Below, piece after piece: positions 465 to 19,395 of a stretch of DNA of 22,516 nt. Both the position numbers and the translations under genes were made by a program. Positions within the stretch are counted from its first letter, which is position 1, and each line of letters opens with the position of its first letter. The notes under the pieces are model-generated. The model made no database searches and was not told the origin of the DNA. It was given only the letters and a program-made list of their open reading frames with translations. This DNA is from a virus. The DNA lies in IMG/VR virus record IMGVR_UViG_3300042890_002027, positions 1 through 22,516 of that record; one strand, 5' to 3'.

Positions 465-1787
465 ATGGAGATAACAAAGTCTAATCTATCTACTCATGGG
501 CACCACCTTAATATTTCGGTGCCCTTTTCCAAGTTTGATGTAGAGAATAGAATTGTATCCGGTTTTGCCACAGCAGACAATATCGATAGAGGAAGTGACA
601 TTGTTTTGGCTGAGGCCTCCGCCCGCGCCTTTGAACGCTTTCGTGGAAATATACGCGAAATGCACGATAAGATCGCTGCTGGGCGGATGGTGTCTTTTTC
701 ACAGGAAGAAATATACGATCCAGAGACTGGAAAGTTTTATAACGGAATTTATGTTAGTTGCTATATATCCAAGGGCGCAGAGAGCACCTGGGAAAAAGTT
801 CTAGATGGAACTCTTAGCGCATTCTCTATCGGCGGGGAAATAAAAGAATCAGAACCGTTCATTGATCCCGAAACAAACAAGTCCGTAAGAATCATCAAAG
901 ACTATGACCTCGTAGAACTCAGCATTGTAGACTCACCCATGAACCAACTTTCAAATGTAATGTCTGTTATTAAATCCGATAATGGATTTGCCCTAAAGGG
1001 CATGGTAGCTGAAACAGCCACCTCTAATGTTTTCTGGTGTAGTTCTGATAATGTTGCAAAGGTATCCGATAGCGAGTCTATGGACTGTGTCTGTGGGAAC
1101 CAAATGCAAAGCATTGGATGGATTGAGTCATCAGATATTGACAAGGCGGATTCTGTTAGTGAAGTTCTTAATAAGTTCTTGAAATCAGAAAAGTCCTTGC
1201 AAAAAACAAACGAAGGAGGTATAGAAATGGCAGAAACAGAACTTATTGCTGAAGTTGATTCAGTAGAGGTTTCTAGCGCAACTGAGGTTCCTGTTGTGGA
1301 AGAAGATAGTAACGTTGAAAAGGCTGTCGTGATCTCTGAGGTTGATGATGACGCAGTTGAGGCGACCCCCGATGCAGATCAAGCAGAGGAAGCCACTGAA
1401 GAGACACCTGACACTGAAGAAGCAGCTGTTACCGAAAAGTCGGTATCGCTTGATGCTTCCGTAGTGGATGAACTCAAGTCTTTTATTCAATCGACGATCG
1501 CTGAGCTTGTCTCGAACAACTCAACAACTATCGCTAATTTTAATCATTCAATTGCTACGCTAGAGTCACGTGTTGACGATATCACTAAGCAATTCAGTGA
1601 TTCTGTATCAAATGTCACTTCAAAGGTTGACGAAGTTTCCGGTAAGATCGGTGAACTTTCTGACGCAGTTGAGAAGGTAGACAAGGATACAGCAATTAAG
1701 AAGTCCGACGACCTTGGCGGGTCTACGGCTGTTACAAAGAAAGATAACATCTGGGGCGGCAGTTTCCTCGACGCAGCATCCCTGTGA
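465..1787 (+). CDS. Prohead serine protease with C-terminal scaffold region (XkdF-like)
   Basis: 440 residues. The first 165 or so residues match the XkdF/U35-type prohead protease pattern: FSKFDVENRIVSGFAT, then D-x-x-x-DIV, a His at REMH67, the SAFS121IGG segment with the likely nucleophile Ser121, and ELSIVDSPMN (151-160), the family's 'E-x-S-x-V-x-x-P-x-N' end. Residues 190-220 hold a Cys cluster (C192, C208, C210, CVCG) like a degenerate zinc ribbon. From residue 255 the protein becomes very acidic and then coiled-coil (about 335-410), as in scaffolding domains. The protease cleaves scaffold and capsid N-termini during head maturation. An internal start at 1227 should also make the C-terminal part alone (separate entry). 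The start at 465 lacks an SD, but the protease fold begins by residue 20, so no later start fits well. It lies between portal and capsid genes. Confidence 0.85.
   Translation: MEITKSNLSTHGHHLNISVPFSKFDVENRIVSGFATADNIDRGSDIVLAEASARAFERFRGNIREMHDKIAAGRMVSFSQEEIYDPETGKFYNGIYVSCYISKGAESTWEKVLDGTLSAFSIGGEIKESEPFIDPETNKSVRIIKDYDLVELSIVDSPMNQLSNVMSVIKSDNGFALKGMVAETATSNVFWCSSDNVAKVSDSESMDCVCGNQMQSIGWIESSDIDKADSVSEVLNKFLKSEKSLQKTNEGGIEMAETELIAEVDSVEVSSATEVPVVEEDSNVEKAVVISEVDDDAVEATPDADQAEEATEETPDTEEAAVTEKSVSLDASVVDELKSFIQSTIAELVSNNSTTIANFNHSIATLESRVDDITKQFSDSVSNVTSKVDEVSGKIGELSDAVEKVDKDTAIKKSDDLGGSTAVTKKDNIWGGSFLDAASL
498..528 (+). terminator. Terminator-like hairpin inside the protease 5' end
   Basis: GGGCACC (498-504) and GGTGCCC (518-524) form a perfect 7-bp stem with a 13-base loop, followed by TTTT. 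It sits over codons 12-20 of the protease gene. It has the form of an intrinsic terminator or attenuator but overlaps coding sequence, so it may instead be a weak attenuator or chance. Confidence 0.35.
1227..1787 (+). CDS. Nested scaffold protein from internal in-frame start
   Basis: A consensus SD (AAGGAGGT, 1213-1220) lies 6 bases before ATG 1227, which is exactly in frame with the protease start (254 codons later). This is a far better initiation site than the one at 465. The product is 186 residues. Residues 1-75 are strongly acidic (runs of Glu, Asp, Ala, Val, Thr). About residues 80-155 have coiled-coil character (DELKSFIQSTIAEL, LESRVDDITKQFSDSV, VDEVSGKIGELSDAVEKV). The end is short and polar. 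This is the style of phage scaffolding proteins, which fill the procapsid and are then removed by the protease. A scaffold nested in the 3' part of its protease gene is known from lambda C/Nu3, so the arrangement has precedent. That it is made separately here is inferred from the SD and frame. Confidence 0.75.
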   Translation: MAETELIAEVDSVEVSSATEVPVVEEDSNVEKAVVISEVDDDAVEATPDADQAEEATEETPDTEEAAVTEKSVSLDASVVDELKSFIQSTIAELVSNNSTTIANFNHSIATLESRVDDITKQFSDSVSNVTSKVDEVSGKIGELSDAVEKVDKDTAIKKSDDLGGSTAVTKKDNIWGGSFLDAASL

Positions 1788-2947: not shown

Positions 2948-3361
2948 ATGTCTTTTACTGCACTTAAGGTTGCTGAATTAAAAAATATCGCTGATGAATT
3001 TGGCGTTGAAATTGATGGTGTTACAACCAAGACCGCTATTATTAATGAACTTCAGGATAATGGAGTTACATTCGAACTTTATAGCAAGACCCAGTCCCTA
3101 GTTGAAAATACTGCTTCTGCCGAAGAACTTTTTTCTGTTCATGGAGCCAGAACTGATAATGCCAGGAAGACAGAAAGATCAGAAGACACGCTTCTTGTCA
3201 AGATGGAAAGATCAAACTTGGTCTATGAACTTTATGGTGTTAGATTTACCAAGGATCACCCATACGCTCTCGTGGATATGGATACAGCTCAACAAATTTT
3301 TGAAGTTGGGGAGGGTTTTAGGCCTGCTACTCCTAAAGAGTTGCAAGACTACTACGGATAA
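2948..3361 (+). CDS. Small capsid-module protein with HeH/SAP-like domain
   Basis: 137 residues. Residues 5-42 (LKVAELKNIADEFGVEIDG, then TTKTAIINELQDNG) read as a HeH/SAP-like helix-extended-loop-helix motif, often found in phage capsid-module proteins and sometimes in nucleic-acid binding. After a polar linker the C-terminal half (VKMERSNLVYELYGVRFTKDHP, then VGEGFRPATPKELQDYY) is a compact alpha/beta segment I have seen only in phage proteins next to capsid genes; its function is not known to me. Possible roles are capsid decoration, vertex plug or head-tail adaptor. It begins a transcription unit, with a strong SD (AAGGAGG) 4 bases before the ATG, and nearly abuts the connector gene (2-base gap). 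Confidence 0.6.
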   Translation: MSFTALKVAELKNIADEFGVEIDGVTTKTAIINELQDNGVTFELYSKTQSLVENTASAEELFSVHGARTDNARKTERSEDTLLVKMERSNLVYELYGVRFTKDHPYALVDMDTAQQIFEVGEGFRPATPKELQDYYG

Positions 3362-6065: not shown

Positions 6066-6094
6066 TTGCTTTTAGTCTTCTATTTCCGTATAAT
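6066..6094 (+). promoter_or_regulatory. Putative promoter of major tail gene
   Basis: TTGCTT (6066-6071), 17 bases, then a perfect TATAAT (6089-6094) in the 97-base gap before the major tail gene. A start near 6101 would leave a leader of about 60 bases, AT-rich and ending in the extended SD at 6141. This is the best sigma-70-type promoter in the window. Confidence 0.65.
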
Positions 6095-6162: not shown

Positions 6163-6804
6163 GCTGCTTCCGTAAGAAATATTATCGTTGGTGCCGCGCA
6201 GGTTTTTGTTAGTGCTAACGTTGGTACAACCGGAGACCCAGTTGCACCGCTTCCAACCCTAACTAGTTCTACTTCTGCCGCAACTACCGTTGCTGCGAGT
6301 GGATCCTGGAGAGATGTTGGTTACACGACCAACGGTCTTGAGTTGTCGTACGAGCCTGACTTCGGTGAAATTGCTGTTGACCAGTTGCTTGATGCTGCTC
6401 GTTTGTTCAAGCAGGGTCAGAAGGTTATGCTGAAGACTGAGTTTGCTGAGGCCACTCTTGAGAACTTGTTCGTTGTCATGAACCAGACCTCTGGTTACAA
6501 TACTGACAATGCGAGGAAGGAATCAGGAACCTTGATCAATGGCGTTAGTAACGCTGTTGAGGTTCAAGGTGGTACTCTTGGTGACTACCCTGTTGAGCGT
6601 TCGCTTATTGCTGTTGGTCCAGGACCTCGTCCAACCTCCGGCAACAACGAGCGTGTCTACTACGCTGCTCGCGCTATGTCAATGGATGCATCTGCGCACG
6701 GTTTGAAGCGTGACACGGGAACTTTCTTCCCTGTCTCGTTCCGACTGTTGCCAGTTGCTTCTACCAGCAACGCGTACGGTAAGATCATTGACCGATCCTA
6801 CTAA
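6160..6804 (+). CDS. Major tail (tube) protein
   Basis: 214 residues. It begins MAASVRNIIVGAAQVFVSAN, the form 'N-I-x-x-G-x-a-x-V-F-V' seen in major tail proteins of many actinobacterial siphophages. It continues with WRDVGYTTNGLELSYEPDFGEIAVDQLLDAARLFKQGQKVMLKTEFAEATLENL, the 'D-x-G-x-T-x-x-G-V/L...E-x-x-v-D-Q' tube-protein pattern, then strands with RVYYAARAMSMDASAHGLKRD. It polymerises into the tail tube around the tape measure. Length is ordinary for a tube protein without an added Ig domain. The gene stands alone between its own promoter (6066) and terminator (6823). Eight of 11 Arg codons are CGN, as in the capsid gene, which fits very high expression. Confidence 0.85.
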   Translation: MAASVRNIIVGAAQVFVSANVGTTGDPVAPLPTLTSSTSAATTVAASGSWRDVGYTTNGLELSYEPDFGEIAVDQLLDAARLFKQGQKVMLKTEFAEATLENLFVVMNQTSGYNTDNARKESGTLINGVSNAVEVQGGTLGDYPVERSLIAVGPGPRPTSGNNERVYYAARAMSMDASAHGLKRDTGTFFPVSFRLLPVASTSNAYGKIIDRSY

Positions 6805-6822: not shown

Positions 6823-6855
6823 GGGCCCCAGATTTTTCTGGGGCCCTTCTGTTTT
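6823..6855 (+). terminator. Intrinsic terminator after major tail gene
   Basis: GGGCCCCAGA (6823-6832) and TCTGGGGCCC (6837-6846) form a perfect 10-bp GC-rich stem with a TTTT loop, followed by TTCTGTTTT. It is preceded by an A-rich run. Confidence 0.85.
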
Positions 6856-6882
6856 GCTAAATTCTAAAAACTTTGGTATACT
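6854..6882 (+). promoter_or_regulatory. Putative promoter of tail chaperone / tape measure unit
   Basis: TTGCTA (6854-6859), 17 bases, then TGG-TATACT (6874-6882), an extended -10. It directly follows the major tail terminator and precedes AGGAGG (6895-6900) and ATG 6909. It shares TGGTATACTTAT with the site at 2917. Confidence 0.65.
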
Positions 6883-7282: not shown

Positions 7283-7633
7283 ATGGATCTTCTAGGAATA
7301 GAGTCCAGAGTCATGACCATTGGAGCATGGTTAAACTATGAACAGTTGGAGGAAACCCTAACATTGTCAGAGTTGGTCGAGCTGGATATGAGTATAACTC
7401 GAAGAGATTGGAAGTTGCAGAGAATGATTGGCGCCTCTGCAGGAGCTGATCTTCCAGAAGATCCATATGGCGATGAGGAAAAAGAAGTGACATCATCAGA
7501 CGTGTTAGACCGAGCACTAGGCAAGCTTTCTGGTGTCGACGATATCTATAACGATATTGTTGATGTTAGAGGAATAGGCGCACAACAGCAGGGCTTCGGA
7601 ATCGGACTCGGTCTTGGGTATGAGGTGGAATAA
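7283..7633 (+). CDS. Tail assembly chaperone, T-like extension frame
   Basis: The frame is 116 residues from ATG 7283, but it is open upstream to 7226, and the real product is most likely the extension of the preceding gene by -1 frameshifting at 7229. The GGGAGG before ATG 7283 ends only 2 bases from it, too close for good initiation, which also argues for frameshift expression. The sequence begins in the fusion as ANGGDVGRSESVKWEDMDLLG and continues with ESRVMTIGAWLNYEQLEETLTLSELVELDMSI, a helical T-domain thought to bind the tape measure and recruit tube subunits. It ends with a Gly-rich tail (QQQGFGIGLGLGYEVE). The stop overlaps the tape measure start as TAATG. Confidence 0.75.
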   Translation: MDLLGIESRVMTIGAWLNYEQLEETLTLSELVELDMSITRRDWKLQRMIGASAGADLPEDPYGDEEKEVTSSDVLDRALGKLSGVDDIYNDIVDVRGIGAQQQGFGIGLGLGYEVE

Positions 7634-10600
7634 TGGCTTCTATTGTTGATCTTGAATTTAGGGCTAGTGCTAATTTTTCTGATTTAATTTCTCAGGTAAA
7701 TGCAGCTAACCAGCAAATTCAAAGACTCAGCATGTCTATGCAGAGGCTTAATGTTGAGTCTTTCAACTCGGCAATGGCCTCATTCTCAAGATCGCTGGCG
7801 CAAAGTGGTCAATTTACTACGCAATCGCTAGTTATTGATGATGGTGTTAAAAAGTTTGGCAAGGCCCTTGGACAAGGAAACCTTAGTCTAAGAGAAAGCA
7901 CAACTGCCATGAGGGAGTTTATTAGGACTCGTGACGGGCAAGTTAGGCAATTAGCTAGGCAACAGGTTCAACTTGAAAGATCTGTCTGGACTTCAACAGG
8001 AAGATCTGCAAGTGGTCAGAGCCGAGGGATCCTTGCCACACCAACTGGACTACCTGATTCGGTTGCAACTAACACAGCCATTGCAACAAAAGAAATGCAG
8101 ATTTTTCACAAAGTTATTAATGAAACTTCTAAGGGCCTTATTAACTGGGGTAAGAATACCCAGTGGGCTGGTAGACAACTCATGGTCGGTCTTTCTATAC
8201 CGCTCTCCATATTTGGAACAACCGCTGCAAAAACTTTCATGGACTTTGACAAAGAACTTACTAGACTTTCTCGTGTTTATGGTGCGTCTATTACTTCTTC
8301 TGGAACACAGGCCCTTGATTCAATTAAAAGCCAGGTTAAAGAACTTTCTACAGAGCTTTCAAAGGCCTTGGGAATACCTGCGGCACAAACAGCGGGACTA
8401 GCTGCTGATCTAGCAGCCACAGGCCTTGAGGGAGAAAAACTCATTGGGGCCATTAAACAAACAAGCATCCTTGCCACGCTGGGAGAAATTGATAGACAGC
8501 AAGCCATGAAAACAACCTTATCTCTTCAAAGTGTTTTCAGATCTGATACAAAACAATTAACTAAAGATATTAACTTTTTGAATGCTGTTGAAAACCAAAC
8601 AAGCGCAAGCATCGATGACCTTACTACTGCAATTCCTAAAGCCGGTCCAGTTGTTAGAGGACTTGGGGGTGACGTAAAAGATCTAGCAACGATGCTTGTA
8701 GCAATGAAGGAGGGTGGAATCCCCGCCGGAGAAGCCGCTAACGCAATCAAATCATCTCTTTCTGCTCTTATCAACCCAACCAAAGAAGTTTCAAAATACA
8801 TGAAAACTTTTGGAATTGACCTTACTGAAATTGTTGATAAAAATGCAGGAAAACTTATGCCGACTCTTAATGAGTTCCAGGGAAAGTTAAATGCGCTCGA
8901 CGACCTTTCAAGGCAGCGCGTGCTTGAAAAACTTTTTGGTAAAATGCAGGTTGGTAGAATTACAGCTTTGTTCAATAATTTGAATCAAGCGGGTAGTCAA
9001 TCTGTACAGGTGATGGAACTCGCGGGAAAATCAGCAGCAGACCTAGCAGCATTAACAGAGCAAGAACTTGCAAGAGCTGCAAACTCTGTTTCTGGACAAT
9101 TTAAGAGAGCAGCTGAAAACTTAAAATCCAATCTTTTACCAATCGGTGAAGAGTTTCTTAAGCTTGGAACTAAAATATTTGGCGCTCTTGGAACGATGCT
9201 TGAAAAATTCAACAACCTTCCTTCCGGATTTAAACAATTTATTTTAGGTCTTACTACCCTAGTTGCAATTGTTGGACCAGTCATTATGCTTGTGGGTGTG
9301 TTTGCTAACTTCTTCGGTTATCTTGTTAAGGCTGGAGTTCTTCTTTCTGCGTTTAAGAAGGGTGGCCTTTCAGCTTTTAAATATGTTACTGCCGAAGAGC
9401 AGGCAGCTAAATTGGCGGGAGACCAACTAACTAAAACTTTTTATGATCAAGTAACAGCAACTAATACCTTTAAAAATGCTGTTGCAAACCTAGCTCTTCA
9501 GTTTAAAGAGTTAGCTGATAATGCCACTGCTGCTTCAGTAGCCACAGGAAATGCTTCACAATCACCAGCAGGTAGAGCCGCTTCTGAAAGGGTAGCAATT
9601 CCTTCCGCCATTTCGGTAGGGTCATCTACTCAGGTAGCGCAAGAACCAGGTAGTGCAGGGGCGCCTACCAGTGCTCAACTGGAACAAGCCTACAGGAGTA
9701 TGAGAGATGGCGGCGTTGCTGGAAAATACTTACTTTCATCAGCTGACCCTAGTATTGTTTCGACCAGCGGCAAATCCAAAGGCAGAACCTTTGCCCGGGG
9801 AGCTGAATATGATAGAGCCCACCTACTTAGTAAAACTGATCCATTCTGGTACGGTAGACCTCTGAGTGCTTTAGGAATAATGCCAAGCCCTAAGTGGCAA
9901 AACACAATGCAGAGGGATTTATCTGACGAAGGCAAAGGATTTGGTTTTTCTACAACTTTGGATGAAAGTGCCCCTGATGCAGAAAAAAGAAAAAAAGCAG
10001 CCATTGATGCTGGAAAGAAAAAAGACCTTGCTGAAGCTGAAGTTAAGAAAGCTAGTAAAGTAGCTGGTGCAACTAAGGAGGGAACTGATGCAGCCAAAGA
10101 GTTGGCTAAAGCTCAAAGAAGACTCATAACCGCAACAGCAAATTATACAGAAGCACTTTTTCAGGCTGGTTCATATAAAGGTAGTGAAATAGTTAAATCA
10201 CAAGCTACCATGTTTGGGCAGGCTAGGTATTTATATGAGCAGGGTGCAGGACCTAATGGGCAAGCAGCTGTAGATGCCGCTGCCAAACAATTAAATAATC
10301 CAGATGTGGCAGCAAGACAAAAGTGGTTCGCTAGCAAAGACGTAAATATTGGTGGGGCTGAAGACCAAGCTTTTGTAAAAAGAGTTCAGGACAATGCCAA
10401 AATAAGAGCGGAACGTAAGCTTAAAGCAGAGCTGGATGCAGAAACTCAGGCTGCTAGAGCAGCTGATCCAGATTATAGAAGGCTTGGTAAAGAAACTGCA
10501 GAATATAAATATAGATTAGCTAAATGGGAAACGGATGAGTTTAATAAATCACTAGTTAGGCTTGAACAAGGATTACAAAGAAGGGCAGCGGCCGCCGGAT

Positions 10601-13600
10601 ATGATATTAGAACTCCACTTTATGGAACCGGTGCGGCTAGCGGCACGGGTCATTTAGGCCCATCATCAGTATCTACACCACAAGATGCCGCAGCATCAAA
10701 AGCTTTGAACGATGCAAAAATTGCTCATGCACGAAAACTTAATGAACTTACTGCATCATTATCTACTCAGCAAGCCGCGGGAGCAGATCTAAGTGAAGCC
10801 CAGATTATTGCCGCAGGAAAACTTGCAAAGTTAACTGGTCAAAGGGAACTTGCAGAACTAAATTACACACAAGCGCTTGATGCATCTGCAAAGTTAGCTA
10901 CAAAGAGTGCCACAAACCCTAAGCGCATAGCAGCTGAACAAGCAGTTATCGCTGCTGAAGCAGCTTTAGTCACAGCTATAAGGACTGAAATTGCTGCCTT
11001 GGGAGGACTTACGACAGAAACTATAATTGAAACTGAACAGTACAGGATGAGTAATCCTAATTCCCCTCAAACAACTACTACTGGAGATGTAGATGTTGAT
11101 GGAGGTGGAGATACAGTTTTGTTAGATCCCGACGGGGAAGAAGGACCAGGTAAAAAAGCAGGTAGACGTCTGCCGTCCATGACTAAAGTAGGAATGGGAG
11201 CCATGGCGGCTGGTTCAGTTGCGTCGCTTGTAGGTCCAAAGCAGGGGGCTTTAGCAAACCTGGCTACAGGGGCCATGAGCTTTGGAGTAACAACAATGAT
11301 GGTTGGGCAAATGATCCCAGCAGAAAGTATGAAAAGATTGGGCGAGGGAATTACTAAAATGACCAAGCTCGGTGGAGTTACTGGAGCAACTGGTAAAGCT
11401 ATGGCTGCATTCTCATCAACAGTTAAAGCAGGAATGTTAGCTCTTCTAGGACCAATCGGGGCCGTAATAGCAATAGTGGCAGGTTTAGGCGCTACAGTCT
11501 GGTATGTAAATAGGCGTACTCAAGATGCTGCTAAAACAACCCAATCATTCATGACTGTATCTAGCGATATGGCCACATTGTTTAATCAAAAACTTAATGG
11601 AATGAAAGCAAATCTTTCTGGACTTTCTGAAAATATTGATGAAGCTCGTAAAAGGTATGAAGAGCTTAAAAAAGCTATTGATGCAATGGATAGCAAAAGC
11701 CCGATCAAAAAACTTATTGAAGATCTTAAAAATGAAGCTGATCCAGAAAGAAGCATCCCTGCTAAACTAACATCAATGTACTCCTCGCTTGTTCTGCAAG
11801 GCCTAGACCCACAAAAAGCAAAGGACGCTATCCAAGTTGTCCTAGATGAAGCTGGTCAAGGCAAGTATAAAATTGTTGTTAATGCTGAAATTGATGAATT
11901 AAATCTTAAGGGACCAGAAGGTAGAAAAAAACTTATTCAATCAGCATTCGATAGAGCTCTTGCAGGGGCTATTGGAACAGATAAATATAACAATGCCATG
12001 GATCAATTTAAAATTAATGGAGTAAAAAATGCAGATAAGCCTAGAGAAGAAGAAGACAAAAGCTTCTGGGACACCGTTGTTGATGCCCTCAACGTACCTC
12101 AAGATGCTGCAAGTTATAACACTCGAAGAGATGACACAATTAGGTCTGATTCTGGACAACTAGCACTAGAAGTTAGTAGAATGGGTGACCCGGCCGTGAA
12201 GGGGGCCGCGGATCAATTAAGTAACATGCTTGGTCAAATTAGTGCAGTTAACCCAGCAGGATTTAGTAAATTTGTAGAGGACTTAAAGACTAGCACAACT
12301 CTTCAAGAAGGTTTTTGGATGGACGAAAGGTTTAGAAAACAATTTATAGAAGATCTTGGAGTTGTTGGAACTAAATATGAAGAACTTATTATAAAAGAAA
12401 ACAACCTCACGGTTGCGGCACAGTTAGCTTTCCTTGCACAATCAGGAGTCTCCGATGCAATGGCTCAAAATGCTTATAATGCAGACAAGGCCGCGGGGAG
12501 CTTTGGAACCGTTACCAGTGCAATAGAAGCTATGACTGTTGCGGCCCAGGTAAACAAGCAACTTGCACTTGACGTACAAGCCGCCACTCCAAGAGTCAAG
12601 GAATCTGCAACTTCGGCCGGTAGAAAAAATGCAGTTGCTTCTGGGTACGATGCCCAAAAGAAAGCAATTCAGGGTAAAATCGATGTAATTAAAAAAGAAA
12701 TAGAAGCAATTAACAAAAAGCTTGAGGCTGAAAAGAAAGCCTTTGAATTTGAAAGAAAAATGCGTGCCTCACAAATTTCTTATAGAGAAGCTTTAGCGGC
12801 AGGGCAACTTGGAGAAGCAGCATTAATCAAGAACCAAATGAATAATGACATGCTTGACAAGCAAAAGGAAGACGAAACTGCTGCAAAAATTGATCCCAAG
12901 CAGGCTCAAATAGATAAACTTCAAGCTCAACTTGATGCAATTGATAAGATGAAGGAAAAGTCTTCTGACGCAACCGTAAGCACTGAGGGCGATGTTAAAA
13001 ATGCAGATAATCTTGAAAAAGCTTGGACTGCTGTTACTGATGGAATTGCTAGTGGCTCAATTAAGTCTGCCAATGATATAAAGAATAATTTAAGTCCAGC
13101 CCTTTATGACGCAATTAAAAAGGGTGGATATGGAATTGATGAGTTTTATGGTAAAGCTAGAAAAACTATTAAAGATTCTATTCAGGGTAGCATTAATGAT
13201 TTAGATGAAACGCAGAAGGCAGTTTGGAAAGCCTATAGTAAAGGCTCAAAAGATCTAGCGGACCAACTTAGAACTGCCAGGATTATGTCTTTTGTCGCTG
13301 GTAGAGGGGGAAGTGTTGAAGAAGCAGTAAAACTTAATCAACAAGGAAAACTTAATGTTACTACAAATAAGCAAGGAGTAATAACCGATGTCTATGCTAA
13401 GGGAGACATACCAGCAACTATAGCAAAGCCTGGTACAAAATCAGCCCTGTACCCAAATGGAATACAGCCCACCGCAGGAAATGCTGATAATACAGCACTT
13501 GCAAAATCAATTGGTGGAGAATTTGAAAGGGCACTTGATAAATATGCTGCTGATGGTAGTTCTTTAAGGGTTAGGAGTTGGGACGGAAAATCAGGTGGAG

Positions 13601-16600
13601 GTGGCGCAAACTACTATAACTATTATGGCTCTGGCATGGGTGGATCAAATTCATATTCAGGAATGGGTGGATCAAATTCATATTCTGATATGGGTGGAGG
13701 AGCTGATGATTATGATTCTGGTATGGGTGGATCAAATTCATATTCTGGTTCAGGGGCAAGCGCATATAATGGAAGATCGTCATATCTTTTCGGGCCACAA
13801 AAATCTTCAGCACTTTATGATGCAACCGCAGACCAGCAGGCTAGCGATAAAAAGGCTTCTACCCCTGCAAGTTCTTCAGCTTCATCTAGTTCTTCAGCTT
13901 CATCTAGTTCCTCTGGAAACCAAAACTCTAGTTACTTAGAAGGTTCTACAGATTCATCTGCAGGGAGCGAACAAGCGATTCAAGGACCATTTGCAGCTAG
14001 AGACGTTAAGGGCCCATTTGACAGAGTAAAAATGAAGAGTTGGGGAAACTATCCGTTTTATAATAATCGGGAGGGTAGAGCTTACGGTGGGCGCCACGCA
14101 GGCCTTGACTACCCAGCTGAGGTTGGAAGCAATGTATTTACAACCCGTGGTGGAAAGGTTGTCATGTCTCGTTACATGGCAGGTACGCCGGGATATGGAA
14201 ACTTTGTAGTTGTTGAAGATGATAAACTAAAGTATGTTTATGCACACCTAAGCACTAGAAGCGTTAAAGAAGGTCAATCCGTTGTTGAAGGACAGCAAAT
14301 AGGTAAATCTGGTAGCAGCGGTCTTAGAGATTCTGCTCCACACCTGCACTTTGAGGTAAGAGATAAAGATTCTAGTTTAGGTAACAAAAACTGGAAATCT
14401 ACCTATGACCCAAGAAATTACCTGCATACCGGTGGAAACGTTAACAAACTTTCTACTATAGACAAATCATTAAAGCGTGACGAAGTTCCTGCAGTTCTTC
14501 AATCTGGTGAATATGTAATTCAACGTAAGGCTGTTAGTCGGTATGGAGAAGGATTCATGCATATGATTAACAATGGTGATCTTTCTGATAAAGAAGTTCC
14601 TAAGTTCCATACCGGGGGAATGGTTCCCCATGCCCATGCAGGTGACGACAATTCCTCTTCAATATCTTATAACCAAAAAACTGGTAAGCGTAAGATAACT
14701 CGCAGGAAGAAGAGAAGACCTGAGCCTACCCAAGCTAAACCATATCTTTCTGTACAAGCAGCGCAATATGGGGGTTTAAAACAATTACAGCTACAAACAA
14801 AACAAGATTATACAAGTTCTAAATTTAAGAAATCTTTAGAAGGAAAATCTATTGAAGAAAGAAGAAGTCATCTAGCTTATTGGAGAGCTAAAAAAGCGGG
14901 ACCAGAAACCTTTGCGGCATATAATCACGCAAGACAAGTTGGAAATTGGAATATAGGCAAAAAAGAACTAGCATTACTTGATAACGCAGGAATAAGCCGT
15001 ACGGCAACTAGTATAACTTCTGCCGTAAAAATTAGAAATGAAAAAAATAGAGCACTGGCAACAAGTTCTTATATAGCACCTGAGTTATCTTTTTTACCTA
15101 AAACATACTTGTCTGCAAAAAAACCTGAAAACACACAATCTTTAGATCAAAATTATACTGAAGATTTTCATAGAAGATCTGGCTTTATGGGTCTTCTTCA
15201 TAAAGCTGCTAAAATTGGATTCACTCCGTATGAACAAGGAGTTTCTAGGGTGTTATCTACTGCTTTGCTATCTATAAACACAGGAAAAGGGCTTGGTGGA
15301 CTTAATCCAAGGGAGGCCTGGAATAATTCTAAGTATGTTTCACCTGGTCAAGCACTTGCAGGTGGAATTGATGCACTTAATAACAAGTGGACCCGTAGAG
15401 ATAGAGACCCTAGCACAATAACTCCAGAAGAAGAACTTAGAAGTGCAATAGCAAATAGAAGCAAAATAACAAGTTTCTCTGGTGGCGGTGCTTTTGGAAA
15501 AATTGCTAACTTAAGTTCTGGTGTTTGGGACGGAGCATTTAGACTGCTTGACCCAATGAGTTATGTACCAATTATGTGGGCTTTTAAGGGAGCTAAAGCA
15601 GGTTTAACTGCATTACCCAATGCTATGCGTACCTTTAATGCGCTTGATAAATTTAAGCCACCAATTGTTGAAGGAATGCCATCTTCAGTTAATGCTTCTA
15701 AAAATGCAAGATCAGCAACAAGTAATTTAGATAGAAGAACTAATGCTGCACTTGCTAAAGAAAGAAAGGCAGCAAGAACTGCAGCAGCCCAAGAAGCCAG
15801 AGGGCAAAAAACTGCAGCAACTTCTGGTGGGGCCGCAGGAGAAAAACAATATGGTGTAGCACACCTTAGACAGATTTTGTCTGGTGGTGGCGCAAAAGAA
15901 AAACAATACGGTGTTGCAAGTCTTAGAAGAATTCTATCTGACGACAGAGGCGAAGCAGACATTAATCCAATGAATTGGTTAAGGCGTGGGCCTAAGTTAA
16001 GTGAAAAAGATGCTGCTAGAACTGAAGAAGTTTCAGCACTTCTAAGAGCAAGCAATAAGGAAGCTGGGTCTGACGCATTTTCAGGAATGCCAGTTACAGA
16101 ACTCGGAGAATTGACTGGTGCTCTGGGCGGACGCAGTTCTGCTATTCCAGGGGTTAACGGAACGTATAGAGATCCCTTTGGACAATTGCATGTTGTGAAG
16201 GGACATACTGATGCTGCCTCTGCTTATGCTGAAGCAAGGGGGTCCCAGCTAACCACAGATCTGTTTGGACTAAAAACACCAGATCAAAAGGTTATAAAGT
16301 TTAGGCACCCAATTACTGGTGATAGGATGTTTGGAGTTCGCTCCACGTTTGATGAAAAATTTGCAGAACCCACCGGAAAATTTACTGATGATGAATTTTA
16401 CAGACAAGCAGTTGCTTCTGTTCTTAGAAGAGACAAAGATCTGCAAGCTGAAAATCTATATGGAAATATTGTAGCCGACCAGGGACAAGCGTTTGTTGCA
16501 AGCAAGGCAAGCCAACCAAGGACTGTTGGGGGGCTTAGACTTCCGGTTGGAGATCAAGTTAGAGCAAACTTCTTAATGGAAAAAGCAGGGGCTAGATCGT

Positions 16601-19395
16601 GGTTTGCAGAAACAACTGCAAGTATTGCAAAGAGGGCTTCGAAGTCTGAGTATTCTGCTGGATTCCAAAAAGCCATAGATGATGCACTAGCAAACTTTGA
16701 TGGTGCAATGGCTAACCTAGGAAAACTTTCACCAGAAGAAGCAGCAATGTATAACAGCTTAAAGGACGACCTTGTTCAACTTTCTAAAACTGATTGGGCT
16801 GAGGTTCAGGCCCATCATGCACAAATTGTTCCAAAGGTTGCTAGGCCTAAAACTGATGCCGCTATAAAGAAGGCGGCAGAAGCTAAGGCAGCTCGTAAGA
16901 TTGAAGCACAGAAATCTATTGATAGTGGTATGCCAGAGTGGTTGCTTTCAATGAGAGATACTCTTTCAGCTAGAATGGATGCCATGAAGGGCATGGCTGG
17001 TGATGATTCTGGTGCAGCTTCTATCGACATGCTAACGGGTGGACTTGGAAAATTGGTTAGTTCAATTGGAAGAAGAATTCCTAGACGGGGTATTGAAAGC
17101 GCTTTGGATAGAGGCGTTATGGGCAATGACTTTATGGACGAAATTTCAAAAGTTGTCCAAGCAGAAGAGCTTGCTCCTAAACTTATAAATGGAAGCTTCC
17201 AGCGTCCAGTATTATCTGATATGGAAAGTCAAGTTGGATCAAGTTCTCTTTCTAAACTTAAAACAATTCGTAAGCGATCTTCGCTAGGTGATAAAATTTC
17301 TTCCATGTTTGATTCTAATAGTTCTACTGATATGATTAGAATTACCTCTGGTTCTGATGAGGGTCAGTTGATGACAATTAAAGAATGGGAAAACATGTAT
17401 TATAGTCTTCCTGAGGAGGCAAGGGGCTATCTGCCAGAAATTGCAACAGTTAAAACTGACGTAGCCACTCGAACCAAGGGCGTAACTGTTGGCGGCATGG
17501 AACCTGCGGACAGAGCTGTTAATGCTACTGGAGAATTTTTAATTAGGCCAGCCGACGTAGAGGCCTGGATGTACGCGGGAAACTTTGATAGAACCATTCG
17601 TCCAGTAAGATCATCAGCTAGATCTAAAAATAGTGTTTCTAACAATATAATGTCTATCGAACAAGATTTTCAAGGATCGGGGCTGGCAACTGCTTTCACT
17701 AGAAGGATGGACGATATCTATCCTAGAATTGGTGTTGACAGAAATACTGTTGAAACTGCTGACGCAGGTACCAGTGTTTGGGGTAAGCTTGGATTTGATC
17801 TTGATAGGTATGATAATGCAGCCAGTCGAATGAATCGAGTAAATAGCTCGTCAAGTCCACAATGGCTAGATAACATGGAGATGTATGGATTGGATGCAGA
17901 ATATCCTGATCTCTATCAAGCAATTCAAGCATTTAAAGATGGAAGAAATCCAGGCTTTTCTATTCAAGATATTATGAGGAACCCGGAATCAAGTACAATA
18001 TTCAGGGGCTCCGGATGGTATGGAGAAAAACTTTATCCAAAGGCTGAACCTAAGAAGAGTTTGATAGAAAGAACCCTTGAACAAAGAATTAAGAATAAGC
18101 GTGCAAAGGAAATAGCATCAACAACGTTTAGCGAAAGATATGATCAAATGGCCCGTATTGCACGGGGGGAAGAAAAATTACCTAACCCATCATTAGTTGA
18201 AAGAATGCTAAGTGGTTATCAAGCATTAAAAGCTAGAATGCCTAAGATGGGAGATGACTCTGGAGCAGCTTCCATCGATATGCTAACTCTAGGACTTGGA
18301 AGACTTATTCCTAAAAATAGAATGGAGTTGGCAGAAGAGGCCCTGCAAAAAAAGATAGCTGATGAAAATTATATAGAAAACTATAAAAGCTCTCTCATGG
18401 GTTATGAGGGGCCTTCATCTCCATCAAGGATCCCCTCACCAGAAGAATTACTTTCAACGATAAACAACAATGTTCCTGGATCTGCAATGCAAGAAATTTA
18501 CAAAAAACTTGGATATGGGTCGATGAACATGCTTGATTCCGGTTCGTATAACAGATTGACAAAAACTGATTTCGGGAAAAATAGATTAACGCCAGCTTAT
18601 CATGGAGTACCAGTTATAAATTCTAAGCCAGAAGCTTTCAATTGGCTACAGGAACTTGTTAGAGGCGAAACTAGCTCTCCAATATCAACAAAATTTGAAG
18701 GTGCGGCAAATAATGCACGTTATAGAGGAGCCGCTCCATATTTTAGTACAGATATGAGATGGGCAGACCTTTATGCACAAGGTAAGAATTTACAAGCAGG
18801 AGGCCTAAACGAAACTGGACCAACACTAGAGACTTTCATTGCTCCAGGAGCAAAAGAAATAGACCAGAGTGCATTTTTTAGTATGTTAAAAAATGCATAT
18901 CCAGAACTTAAAGGTGTTCCAAATAACATTCTTAGATCTAAAATGTCTGAATTAGCAGCCGAGTTTGGTTATGATATTCTTAGAACTGATCATTCTCGCG
19001 GATTTTTAACAGCGCTAAACAAGGGTTCCCTACTGGTTAATAAAGAACGACTTCCCCGCAACCCTAATAACATACCAGGACTGCGTTCGGGCGGCACTAT
19101 CAATAATGACAATACCCTTGCCAATCTTCACCAAGGAGAAATGGTTCTCACCCAACCATTAACACAAAAGCTTAATGATGGTATCAATGCTTTGAGTTAT
19201 ATGCTGGCTAGACCAAATAATTCTATGTCTTCTGTTTCTTCTGGTCAACCGGCCCAACAAGTTGCATCAGCACCCGTATCATACTATAATCTTACTGTAC
19301 AACCTTCTCCGGGAATGGACGAAGACGCACTGGCTAATAGAGTTGTAAGAAAGCTTAAGGACCACGAAAGAAGAGTTGGGATGGCGAGAAGATAA
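7633..19395 (+). CDS. Giant tape measure protein with M23 peptidase and enzyme-like cargo
   Basis: 3920 residues, about two to four times the usual size. Start ATG 7633 overlaps the preceding stop and has GAGGTG 6 bases upstream. Order by residue: 1-150 helical; about 200-450 TP901-1-like core (MDFDKELTRLSRVYG, GIPAAQTAGLAADLAATG, GGIPAGEAANAIKSSLS, LEKLFGKMQVGRITAL); 533-575 hydrophobic; 645-1175 an unrecognised polar insert; 1183-1293 hydrophobic helices (LLGPIGAVIAIVAGLGATVW); 1675-1770 coiled coil; 1995-2120 Gly/Ser repeats; 2152-2264 M23 peptidase; 2265-2330 HTGG...GEYVI motif; 2337-3815 cargo block with kinase-, GNAT- and ART-like regions; 3818-3920 canonical end (GGTI...GEMVLTQPL, then EDALANRVVRKLKDHE). 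It sets tail length and is ejected into the host on infection. The tape function is secure; the cargo functions are inferred. Confidence 0.93.
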   Translation: MASIVDLEFRASANFSDLISQVNAANQQIQRLSMSMQRLNVESFNSAMASFSRSLAQSGQFTTQSLVIDDGVKKFGKALGQGNLSLRESTTAMREFIRTRDGQVRQLARQQVQLERSVWTSTGRSASGQSRGILATPTGLPDSVATNTAIATKEMQIFHKVINETSKGLINWGKNTQWAGRQLMVGLSIPLSIFGTTAAKTFMDFDKELTRLSRVYGASITSSGTQALDSIKSQVKELSTELSKALGIPAAQTAGLAADLAATGLEGEKLIGAIKQTSILATLGEIDRQQAMKTTLSLQSVFRSDTKQLTKDINFLNAVENQTSASIDDLTTAIPKAGPVVRGLGGDVKDLATMLVAMKEGGIPAGEAANAIKSSLSALINPTKEVSKYMKTFGIDLTEIVDKNAGKLMPTLNEFQGKLNALDDLSRQRVLEKLFGKMQVGRITALFNNLNQAGSQSVQVMELAGKSAADLAALTEQELARAANSVSGQFKRAAENLKSNLLPIGEEFLKLGTKIFGALGTMLEKFNNLPSGFKQFILGLTTLVAIVGPVIMLVGVFANFFGYLVKAGVLLSAFKKGGLSAFKYVTAEEQAAKLAGDQLTKTFYDQVTATNTFKNAVANLALQFKELADNATAASVATGNASQSPAGRAASERVAIPSAISVGSSTQVAQEPGSAGAPTSAQLEQAYRSMRDGGVAGKYLLSSADPSIVSTSGKSKGRTFARGAEYDRAHLLSKTDPFWYGRPLSALGIMPSPKWQNTMQRDLSDEGKGFGFSTTLDESAPDAEKRKKAAIDAGKKKDLAEAEVKKASKVAGATKEGTDAAKELAKAQRRLITATANYTEALFQAGSYKGSEIVKSQATMFGQARYLYEQGAGPNGQAAVDAAAKQLNNPDVAARQKWFASKDVNIGGAEDQAFVKRVQDNAKIRAERKLKAELDAETQAARAADPDYRRLGKETAEYKYRLAKWETDEFNKSLVRLEQGLQRRAAAAGYDIRTPLYGTGAASGTGHLGPSSVSTPQDAAASKALNDAKIAHARKLNELTASLSTQQAAGADLSEAQIIAAGKLAKLTGQRELAELNYTQALDASAKLATKSATNPKRIAAEQAVIAAEAALVTAIRTEIAALGGLTTETIIETEQYRMSNPNSPQTTTTGDVDVDGGGDTVLLDPDGEEGPGKKAGRRLPSMTKVGMGAMAAGSVASLVGPKQGALANLATGAMSFGVTTMMVGQMIPAESMKRLGEGITKMTKLGGVTGATGKAMAAFSSTVKAGMLALLGPIGAVIAIVAGLGATVWYVNRRTQDAAKTTQSFMTVSSDMATLFNQKLNGMKANLSGLSENIDEARKRYEELKKAIDAMDSKSPIKKLIEDLKNEADPERSIPAKLTSMYSSLVLQGLDPQKAKDAIQVVLDEAGQGKYKIVVNAEIDELNLKGPEGRKKLIQSAFDRALAGAIGTDKYNNAMDQFKINGVKNADKPREEEDKSFWDTVVDALNVPQDAASYNTRRDDTIRSDSGQLALEVSRMGDPAVKGAADQLSNMLGQISAVNPAGFSKFVEDLKTSTTLQEGFWMDERFRKQFIEDLGVVGTKYEELIIKENNLTVAAQLAFLAQSGVSDAMAQNAYNADKAAGSFGTVTSAIEAMTVAAQVNKQLALDVQAATPRVKESATSAGRKNAVASGYDAQKKAIQGKIDVIKKEIEAINKKLEAEKKAFEFERKMRASQISYREALAAGQLGEAALIKNQMNNDMLDKQKEDETAAKIDPKQAQIDKLQAQLDAIDKMKEKSSDATVSTEGDVKNADNLEKAWTAVTDGIASGSIKSANDIKNNLSPALYDAIKKGGYGIDEFYGKARKTIKDSIQGSINDLDETQKAVWKAYSKGSKDLADQLRTARIMSFVAGRGGSVEEAVKLNQQGKLNVTTNKQGVITDVYAKGDIPATIAKPGTKSALYPNGIQPTAGNADNTALAKSIGGEFERALDKYAADGSSLRVRSWDGKSGGGGANYYNYYGSGMGGSNSYSGMGGSNSYSDMGGGADDYDSGMGGSNSYSGSGASAYNGRSSYLFGPQKSSALYDATADQQASDKKASTPASSSASSSSSASSSSSGNQNSSYLEGSTDSSAGSEQAIQGPFAARDVKGPFDRVKMKSWGNYPFYNNREGRAYGGRHAGLDYPAEVGSNVFTTRGGKVVMSRYMAGTPGYGNFVVVEDDKLKYVYAHLSTRSVKEGQSVVEGQQIGKSGSSGLRDSAPHLHFEVRDKDSSLGNKNWKSTYDPRNYLHTGGNVNKLSTIDKSLKRDEVPAVLQSGEYVIQRKAVSRYGEGFMHMINNGDLSDKEVPKFHTGGMVPHAHAGDDNSSSISYNQKTGKRKITRRKKRRPEPTQAKPYLSVQAAQYGGLKQLQLQTKQDYTSSKFKKSLEGKSIEERRSHLAYWRAKKAGPETFAAYNHARQVGNWNIGKKELALLDNAGISRTATSITSAVKIRNEKNRALATSSYIAPELSFLPKTYLSAKKPENTQSLDQNYTEDFHRRSGFMGLLHKAAKIGFTPYEQGVSRVLSTALLSINTGKGLGGLNPREAWNNSKYVSPGQALAGGIDALNNKWTRRDRDPSTITPEEELRSAIANRSKITSFSGGGAFGKIANLSSGVWDGAFRLLDPMSYVPIMWAFKGAKAGLTALPNAMRTFNALDKFKPPIVEGMPSSVNASKNARSATSNLDRRTNAALAKERKAARTAAAQEARGQKTAATSGGAAGEKQYGVAHLRQILSGGGAKEKQYGVASLRRILSDDRGEADINPMNWLRRGPKLSEKDAARTEEVSALLRASNKEAGSDAFSGMPVTELGELTGALGGRSSAIPGVNGTYRDPFGQLHVVKGHTDAASAYAEARGSQLTTDLFGLKTPDQKVIKFRHPITGDRMFGVRSTFDEKFAEPTGKFTDDEFYRQAVASVLRRDKDLQAENLYGNIVADQGQAFVASKASQPRTVGGLRLPVGDQVRANFLMEKAGARSWFAETTASIAKRASKSEYSAGFQKAIDDALANFDGAMANLGKLSPEEAAMYNSLKDDLVQLSKTDWAEVQAHHAQIVPKVARPKTDAAIKKAAEAKAARKIEAQKSIDSGMPEWLLSMRDTLSARMDAMKGMAGDDSGAASIDMLTGGLGKLVSSIGRRIPRRGIESALDRGVMGNDFMDEISKVVQAEELAPKLINGSFQRPVLSDMESQVGSSSLSKLKTIRKRSSLGDKISSMFDSNSSTDMIRITSGSDEGQLMTIKEWENMYYSLPEEARGYLPEIATVKTDVATRTKGVTVGGMEPADRAVNATGEFLIRPADVEAWMYAGNFDRTIRPVRSSARSKNSVSNNIMSIEQDFQGSGLATAFTRRMDDIYPRIGVDRNTVETADAGTSVWGKLGFDLDRYDNAASRMNRVNSSSSPQWLDNMEMYGLDAEYPDLYQAIQAFKDGRNPGFSIQDIMRNPESSTIFRGSGWYGEKLYPKAEPKKSLIERTLEQRIKNKRAKEIASTTFSERYDQMARIARGEEKLPNPSLVERMLSGYQALKARMPKMGDDSGAASIDMLTLGLGRLIPKNRMELAEEALQKKIADENYIENYKSSLMGYEGPSSPSRIPSPEELLSTINNNVPGSAMQEIYKKLGYGSMNMLDSGSYNRLTKTDFGKNRLTPAYHGVPVINSKPEAFNWLQELVRGETSSPISTKFEGAANNARYRGAAPYFSTDMRWADLYAQGKNLQAGGLNETGPTLETFIAPGAKEIDQSAFFSMLKNAYPELKGVPNNILRSKMSELAAEFGYDILRTDHSRGFLTALNKGSLLVNKERLPRNPNNIPGLRSGGTINNDNTLANLHQGEMVLTQPLTQKLNDGINALSYMLARPNNSMSSVSSGQPAQQVASAPVSYYNLTVQPSPGMDEDALANRVVRKLKDHERRVGMARR
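8230..8982 (+). other. Tape measure core domain (TP901-1-like)
   Basis: Residues about 200-450 of the tape measure. The order F-MDFDKELTRLSRVYG, GIPAAQTAGLAADLAATG, EAVENQTSAS-like helix, KAGPVVRGLGGDVKDLATM, GGIPAGEAANAIKSSLSALI and KLFGKMQVGRITALFNNL is that of the PhageMin_Tail family found in most tape measures. Confidence 0.85.
13636..13757 (+). repeat. 27-base Gly/Ser/Tyr-coding repeats
   Basis: Copies of ATGGGTGGATCAAATTCATA start at 13636, 13663 and 13723, with a diverged copy at 13690. Spacing is 27, 27 and 33 bases, so the frame is kept. They encode MGGSNSYSG-type units in the flexible stretch before the peptidase domain. Confidence 0.85.
13870..13911 (+). repeat. 18-base serine-coding tandem repeat
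   Basis: AGTTCTTCAGCTTCATCT occurs twice in tandem (13870-13887, 13888-13905), giving a Ser/Ala linker just upstream of the peptidase domain. Confidence 0.8.
14086..14424 (+). other. M23 (LytM-like) peptidase domain of the tape measure
   Basis: Residues about 2152-2264. H2155 and D2159 (HAGLD), H2205 (YAHLS), H2237 and H2239 (HLHFEV) are all present, i.e. the three expected zinc ligands and the two extra catalytic histidines of M23 peptidases. The order GGRHAGLDY, GNFVVVEDDKLKYVYAHLS, GQQIGKSGSSG, APHLHFEV is canonical. Such domains cut peptidoglycan cross-bridges, here presumably as the tail tip opens the cell wall during DNA entry. Confidence 0.92.
14425..14629 (+). other. First HTGG / GEYVI tape-measure motif
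   Basis: Residues about 2265-2332: HTGGNVNKL, DEVPAVLQSGEYVIQRKAVSRYG, then a second HTGG. This 'GG...VPA-x-L-x-x-GE-x-V-I' pattern is usually near the C-terminus of tape measures. A second, shorter version (RSGGTI, ANLHQGEMVLTQPL) lies at about 19087-19160, so this copy marks the edge of the intervening block. Confidence 0.65.
15841..15954 (+). repeat. 57-base tandem duplication in the tape measure
   Basis: Two 19-codon units, 15841-15897 and 15898-15954, encode EKQYGVAHLRQILSGGGAK and EKQYGVASLRRILSDDRGE. The DNA copies differ at many third positions, so the duplication is not recent. Confidence 0.85.
16144..16521 (+). other. Kinase-fold-like region of the tape measure cargo
   Basis: Residues about 2838-2963. 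NGTYRDPFGQLHVVK2856 followed by AYAE2867ARGSQLTTDLFGL looks like the N-lobe of the HipA/PI-kinase-like domains in phage and plasmid polyproteins (Gly turn, 'G-x-x-x-V-V-K', helix Glu). ENLYGNIVADQGQAFVAS could match the catalytic 'N-x-x-G...' stretch, but the following metal-binding Asp is absent (Ala/Ser), so it may be inactive. Moderate to low certainty. Confidence 0.4.
16942..17110 (+). repeat. Linker repeat copy 1 (GDDSGAASIDMLT)
   Basis: Residues 3104 to about 3159: LLS..., ARM, then GDDSGAASIDMLT (3123-3135), GLGKL and IPRRGIESA. It repeats at 18205, identical over 13 residues. Confidence 0.85.
17479..17817 (+). other. GNAT acetyltransferase-like region of the tape measure cargo
   Basis: Residues about 3283-3395. 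After strands (EFLIRPADVEAWMYA, VSNNIMSIEQDF) comes Q3347GSGLATAFTRRMDDIY, matching the GNAT acetyl-CoA loop 'Q/R-x-x-G-x-G/A' and its helix. Then IGVDRNTVETADAGTSVW3383GKLGFDLD matches the 'A...G...W-x-x-x-GF' end of a family of GNAT-like domains in phage proteins. Acceptor substrate unknown. Confidence 0.6.
18205..18340 (+). repeat. Linker repeat copy 2 (GDDSGAASIDMLT)
   Basis: Residues 3525 to about 3569: MLSGYQALKARM, GDDSGAASIDMLT (3540-3552), GLGRLIPKNRMELAEEAL. It aligns with the copy at 16942 including the ARM before it and the GLG-K/R-L after it. Confidence 0.85.
18586..19059 (+). other. ADP-ribosyltransferase-like region of the tape measure cargo
   Basis: Residues about 3652-3809. 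AYH3657GVP, then RGAAPY3703FSTDMRWADLYAQG, then FGYDILRT near the end follow the order of phage polyvalent-type ADP-ribosyltransferase domains ('Y-H-G-T', 'G-x-Y-F-S/T-x-x-x-x-x-A-x-x-Y-A', 'A-x-x-x-G-Y-D-x-I'). I cannot place the final catalytic Glu, so activity is uncertain. Confidence 0.45.

Follow-up and report, generated by a model that had tools for sequence, protein, structure and literature searches.

The gene for the head maturation protease in this viral genome very probably carries a second, in-frame translation start, from which the scaffold part of its product would also be made as a separate protein. The window, i.e. the whole stretch of DNA that was analysed, comprises 22,516 nucleotides of the IMG/VR record IMGVR_UViG_3300042890_002027, and the promoter, protease-scaffold and capsid features from 428 to 2850 are located on its forward strand. 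An open reading frame of 440 amino acids (465–1787), the predicted protease-scaffold fusion, lies between the end of the portal gene and the gene of an HK97-fold capsid protein and begins with an ATG without a Shine-Dalgarno (SD) sequence. Inside this frame, the SD AAGGAGGT at 1213–1220 is followed by the spacer ATAGAA (1221–1226) and an ATG (1227–1229), with six bases between SD and ATG. The internal ATG is in frame with the parent start ((1227 − 465)/3 = 254), corresponds to codon 255 of 440 and opens a nested frame of 186 amino acids (1227–1787). The original prediction had placed these elements 254 codons into the protease gene, and every coordinate proved to be correct; likewise, the peptide N-E-G-G-I, which it had assigned to the SD AAGGAGGT in the protease frame, is the one read from the sequence.

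According to the mechanism proposed here, one frame would give rise to two proteins with a common C-terminus. Initiation at ATG 465 would yield the 440-residue protease-scaffold fusion, and initiation at ATG 1227, behind a near-perfect SD, would yield the 186-residue scaffold alone and in excess. Through the C-terminal part that they share, both proteins would assemble together with the capsid protein; a few proteases would thereby be incorporated into each prohead and would later degrade the scaffold. The parent start, which is located right behind a putative promoter, would most likely be translated from a leaderless or near-leaderless mRNA, and the transcript from this promoter would also supply the scaffold and the capsid protein through their SD-led starts. 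The sequence elements and their conservation constitute the observed part of this study; from them we infer that the two products exist, in what ratio and with what roles, and where transcription begins.

The protease-scaffold gene and its homologues

The fusion protein passed the gathering cut-off of the Pfam family PF04586 (Peptidase_S78 prohead protease) with 23.2 bits against 21 and matched phrog_9427 (head maturation protease) over its full length with an E-value of 2e-113. The score for TIGR01543 was below the cut-off (19.5 vs. 59), and Pfam gave no S49 match for the fusion protein. The S78-type protease domain comprises approximately residues 1–166 (465–962) and contains H67 and S121, which are invariant in alignments of 11 and 31 sequences and, judging from the family, probably form the catalytic pair. 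In the AlphaFold model, for which an alignment of the window protein with the fetched contigs was used, the protease part is confident (pLDDT mostly 80–93). It is followed by a small predicted beta segment (1020–1130; strands at residues 186–221), which is zinc-ribbon-like with the conserved cysteines C192, C208 and C210, and by a helix ending near residue 247. The columns of these three cysteines are invariant in alignment A1, and a CxxC motif is found in relatives. Residues 246–330 are mostly disordered and acidic, and two long helices are predicted at 331–349 and 353–415; codon 255, the internal start, coincides with the beginning of the disordered stretch. The modelled fold resembles predicted viral prohead proteases, and a Foldseek search of the PDB with the whole fusion retrieved no solved structure below an E-value of 0.001. 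Elsewhere in the window, the tape measure gene (7633–19395), which encodes 3920 residues and occupies more than half of the window, includes an M23-like peptidase motif (HLHFEVR) and, at 13636–13698, a 27-nt repeat.

Homologues were collected from several sources. By tblastn, 138 phage records were found, including 127 Streptomyces phages and 9 Rhodococcus phages, of which 129 cover at least 80% of the query and none exceeds 60% identity to the window protein. The annotated relatives that were fetched belong to the Stanwilliamsviridae, one unclassified Streptomyces phage and Rhodococcus phages. An alignment search of IMG/VR gave at least 596 relatives, 80 of which were kept, and a capsid search added a further 80 loci. 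The sample analysed thus consisted of 173 complete frames, represented by 63 non-redundant sequences; one locus (L015) was left out as a distant protease. In the fetched annotated relatives, no internal scaffold start is listed. A description of a nested scaffold in this protease family was not found in the literature, of which subscription journals were covered incompletely.

The parent start and its putative promoter

The original prediction had stated that the parent start at 465 has no SD. This agrees with a duplex energy with the 3' tail of the 16S rRNA of only −1.9 kcal/mol at ATG 465, as opposed to −13.9 kcal/mol at the internal site, and with the homologues, among which an SD 5-mer is found at the parent start in one of 63. 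However, the reading is incomplete, since a putative promoter adjoins this start: TTGCTT (428–433), a 17-nt spacer and TAATAT (451–456) end 8 nt before the protease ATG. The pattern TTG-N16-18-TANNNT ending 5–10 nt before the protease start is present in 52 of the 63 homologues as opposed to 1.7 expected, with a spacer of 17 in 45 of these 52 matches, and TANNNT alone ends 5–11 nt before the ATG in 62 of the 63. A correctly spaced TTG hexamer is missing from eleven homologues, and in L178 both elements are absent. The same pattern was absent before the capsid start (0/48), and the element at 428–456 was not flagged by a scan for the E. coli promoter consensus. The base preceding the parent ATG is a pyrimidine in 54 of the 63 homologues, and the parent start is an ATG in all 63, a count that is slightly biased, as the choice of starts favoured ATG.

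In Mycobacterium tuberculosis, transcripts start 7–12 nt downstream of TANNNT, and leaderless genes account for about a quarter of those with a mapped start; leaderless translation is robust in M. smegmatis (PMC3898074, PMC4633059). The spacing rule for leaderless genes places the −10 element approximately 6–7 nt before the ATG or GTG start (PMC3898074). The gap between the putative promoter and the protease ATG is 6 or 7 nt in 30 of the 52 matches, 8 nt in the window and 9–10 nt in 21, which would leave a leader of about 3–4 nt; therefore, the wording “leaderless or near-leaderless” is used. Judged by these patterns, it is fairly likely that the protease is read from such an mRNA. Two more putative promoters of the form TTGCTN-N17-TANNNT were found in the window at 6066–6094 and 6854–6882, each upstream of a gene with an ordinary SD-led leader (of about 60 nt and 25 nt, respectively, with a GC-rich hairpin preceding the second promoter), so the close spacing of promoter and ATG is specific to the protease in the window. 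In the Streptomyces phage Samisti12 (L195), TTG-N16-18-TANNNT is located exactly 6 nt before the ATG at 6218, 8581, 11437 and 25592, with little or no SD, and late genes without a leader may be common to these Streptomyces phages in general. A hairpin at 498–524 just inside the protease gene (seven pairs, then TTTT) was dropped, as it is not conserved in the homologues.

The main rival to a leaderless parent start is re-initiation from the upstream gene, which concerns the parent start only. The upstream genes overlap the protease start or end within 4 nt of it in several Streptomyces phages, and the promoter-pattern test covers DNA only. In the window, however, the portal frame ends at 426, 38 nt upstream of the protease start, and TTG-N17-TANNNT is conserved in both arrangements of the upstream gene; re-initiation is thus considered unlikely, although it retains some weight, and a leaderless or near-leaderless start is preferred.

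Conservation of the internal signal

When synonymous codons were sampled from the gene while the protein was held fixed, Met 255 was preceded by an SD of 6 or more nucleotides with p = 0.24 in the window alone, because the Met is fixed and GGA and GGT are common. A single sequence is therefore weak evidence, and it is the comparison across homologues that argues for a real nested start. In all 63 non-redundant homologues the internal SD is kept, and of all SDs that precede an in-frame start downstream of codon 100, the strongest is the one at the junction of protease and scaffold, with its start 3–11 nt downstream. A strict criterion, i.e. an exact SD core of at least 6 nt containing GGAG, gave 138 of 139 distinct proteins, the exception being L185 with AAGGGGGT, for which the pairing is still −13.0. 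Two further relatives from bacterial assemblies (L196 and L197) also keep the internal signal at the same domain boundary. With the proteins held fixed, a junction SD was observed in 62 of the 63 homologues vs. 7.07 expected.

Loss of the SD or the ATG in homologues had been named as evidence against the original prediction. The comparison did not refute it: the SD and a start are kept in every one of the 63, while the start is not always an ATG and is more often a GTG (ATG 25, GTG 35, TTG 3). Elsewhere in these genes, about 6% of the synonymous codons for that residue are GTG or TTG, and at least 17 swaps of the start codon were counted on the tree, never outside ATG, GTG and TTG. In 56 cases, the SD consists of the codons GGA-GGT (or GGA-GGC/GGA), with the peptide x-G-G, and in another frame it reads AAG-GAG-GTA (L011, L012, L104 and L110; K-E-V), CAG-GAG-GAG (L097; Q-E-E) or AAG-GAG-GAT (L197; K-E-D). 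As the SD is thus encoded in two reading frames with different peptides, it is the nucleotides, i.e. the RNA, and not the peptide that are conserved. Given this and the rare start-capable codons, selection acts on the RNA signal. The homologues are related and not independent, and the multiplied probabilities from the codon tests are not p-values; the repeated exchange of the start codon and the frame change of the SD are the better argument.

Two unusual homologues also bear on the junction. In L109, the protease and scaffold parts are separated by an in-frame TAA (3221–3223), and the scaffold part retains AAGGAGGT and a GTG at 3287; this stop was seen in a single metagenomic contig and might be erroneous, yet it is allowed by the nested-start model. 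In L178 (377–2977), the protease-scaffold frame has 867 codons and a large insertion, and the internal SD is still located at the junction, at codon 630. The promoter pattern TTG-N16-18-TANNNT was not found before the internal start in any of the 63 homologues, nor between 435 and 2549 of the window. An internal RNA structure occluding the SD was considered and rejected, as the local fold is no stronger than that of shuffled sequences (z 0.72).

The conservation of the junction also bears on readings without a second product by internal initiation. If the fusion alone sufficed, the scaffold would be freed by self-cleavage, as in P2 gpO, and the SD would be a relic of a separate gene. Both P2 and lambda are described with the two functions in one gene (PMC8508860), and K-S dipeptides, which may mark protease cleavage sites, occur 224 times in the scaffold part of the 63 homologues vs. 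84.5 expected, a 2.7-fold enrichment. However, a relic would decay, whereas the SD and the start are kept despite synonymous freedom across homologues of about 40% identity, making this explanation improbable. More doubtful still is that the SD-like sequence serves as a translational pause at the domain boundary, aiding the folding of the protease with no internal initiation: the site is located exactly at the modelled border of the folded part and the disordered linker, but a pause needs neither an in-frame start 3–11 nt downstream in all homologues nor the rare GTG and TTG. A chance SD-like match, conceivable from p = 0.24 in the window alone, is refuted by the conservation in the family (62/63 vs. 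7.1 expected) and has a negligible probability.

The scaffold part and comparison with known systems

The nested frame is predicted to encode an acidic disordered segment, a long coiled coil and C-terminal motifs. Its first 75 residues contain 25 D/E and 2 K/R, which, together with the helices predicted further downstream, matches the acidic-then-coiled-coil order originally described. In the homologues, the scaffold part has a length of 145–238 residues with a median of 174, and its two C-terminal motifs, K-K-S-x-D and W-x-G-x-F-L, show strong conservation, making them the natural candidate for the capsid-binding part. Among PDB entries, sequence relatives of the scaffold part were generic coiled coils only, and no characterised scaffold was matched. 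The major capsid protein (1825–2850; 341 amino acids) matches TIGR01554, and its model matches HK97-fold capsids. This profile has 385 positions and is matched from position 105, at protein residue 12, so the HK97-type delta domain of about 100 residues is missing from the capsid protein, and a separate scaffold would therefore be needed. In HK97, the delta domain of the capsid protein acts as the scaffold (PMC10275583, PMC8508860). In the fetched annotated relatives, no scaffold is annotated, and nothing lies between the protease and capsid genes. The scaffold role of the nested product is suggested by its position and composition, by its coiled coil and by the absence of the delta domain from the capsid protein.

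The original prediction had recognised the logic of lambda C/Nu3 in another protease family, which is consistent with an in-frame internal SD start at a domain boundary in a protein with an S78 match and no S49 match. Lambda C is a ClpP/S49-like protease and belongs to a different family. In phage lambda, the scaffold corresponds to the C-terminal portion of the protease gene, read in frame from an internal start of its own (Shaw and Murialdo 1980, as cited in PMC8508860). The window shares this arrangement but differs in its S78-type protease and in a parent start that looks leaderless or nearly so. The gene works like lambda C/Nu3 but is not a homologous member, since it is of the S78 and not the S49 type.

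In herpesviruses, the scaffold is made from a separate internal transcript, whereas the internal start of the window is not preceded by a promoter pattern. Phage Mu (I/Z) has a single gene for protease and scaffold (PMC8508860), and herpesvirus UL26.5 is contained in UL26 (PMC2949831); as in the window, the scaffold shares the C-terminus of the protease in both. HK97 (gp4/gp5) also has an S78-type protease beside an HK97-fold capsid gene. However, HK97 uses the delta domain of its capsid protein as scaffold, as is typical of the delta-domain type represented by HK97 and T5, whereas in the window the capsid protein has no N-terminal delta domain and the predicted scaffold frame lies inside the protease gene. 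The protease of the Streptomyces Stanwilliamsviridae (Circinus, Samisti12, Coruscant) is a full-length homologue with the same internal SD and start, but in the fetched records it is annotated as a single protease gene without the scaffold start.

With the nested start, a scaffold gene would be assigned to a phage family in which it had been missing and which comprises at least 129 sequenced records and several hundred environmental contigs, and the lambda C/Nu3 arrangement would be seen on an HK97-type protease. A single frame would combine two starts, one probably leaderless and the other led by a strong SD, providing a system for testing how the protease-to-scaffold ratio is set in a phage. 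It is quite conceivable, although we propose it tentatively, that the two initiation modes themselves set this ratio, with the protease made only by leaderless initiation on transcripts beginning at its AUG and the scaffold made by SD initiation on any transcript covering it. If this is true, the placement of the promoter, and not the strength of the SD, would meter the number of proteases per prohead across a large group of actinobacterial phages.
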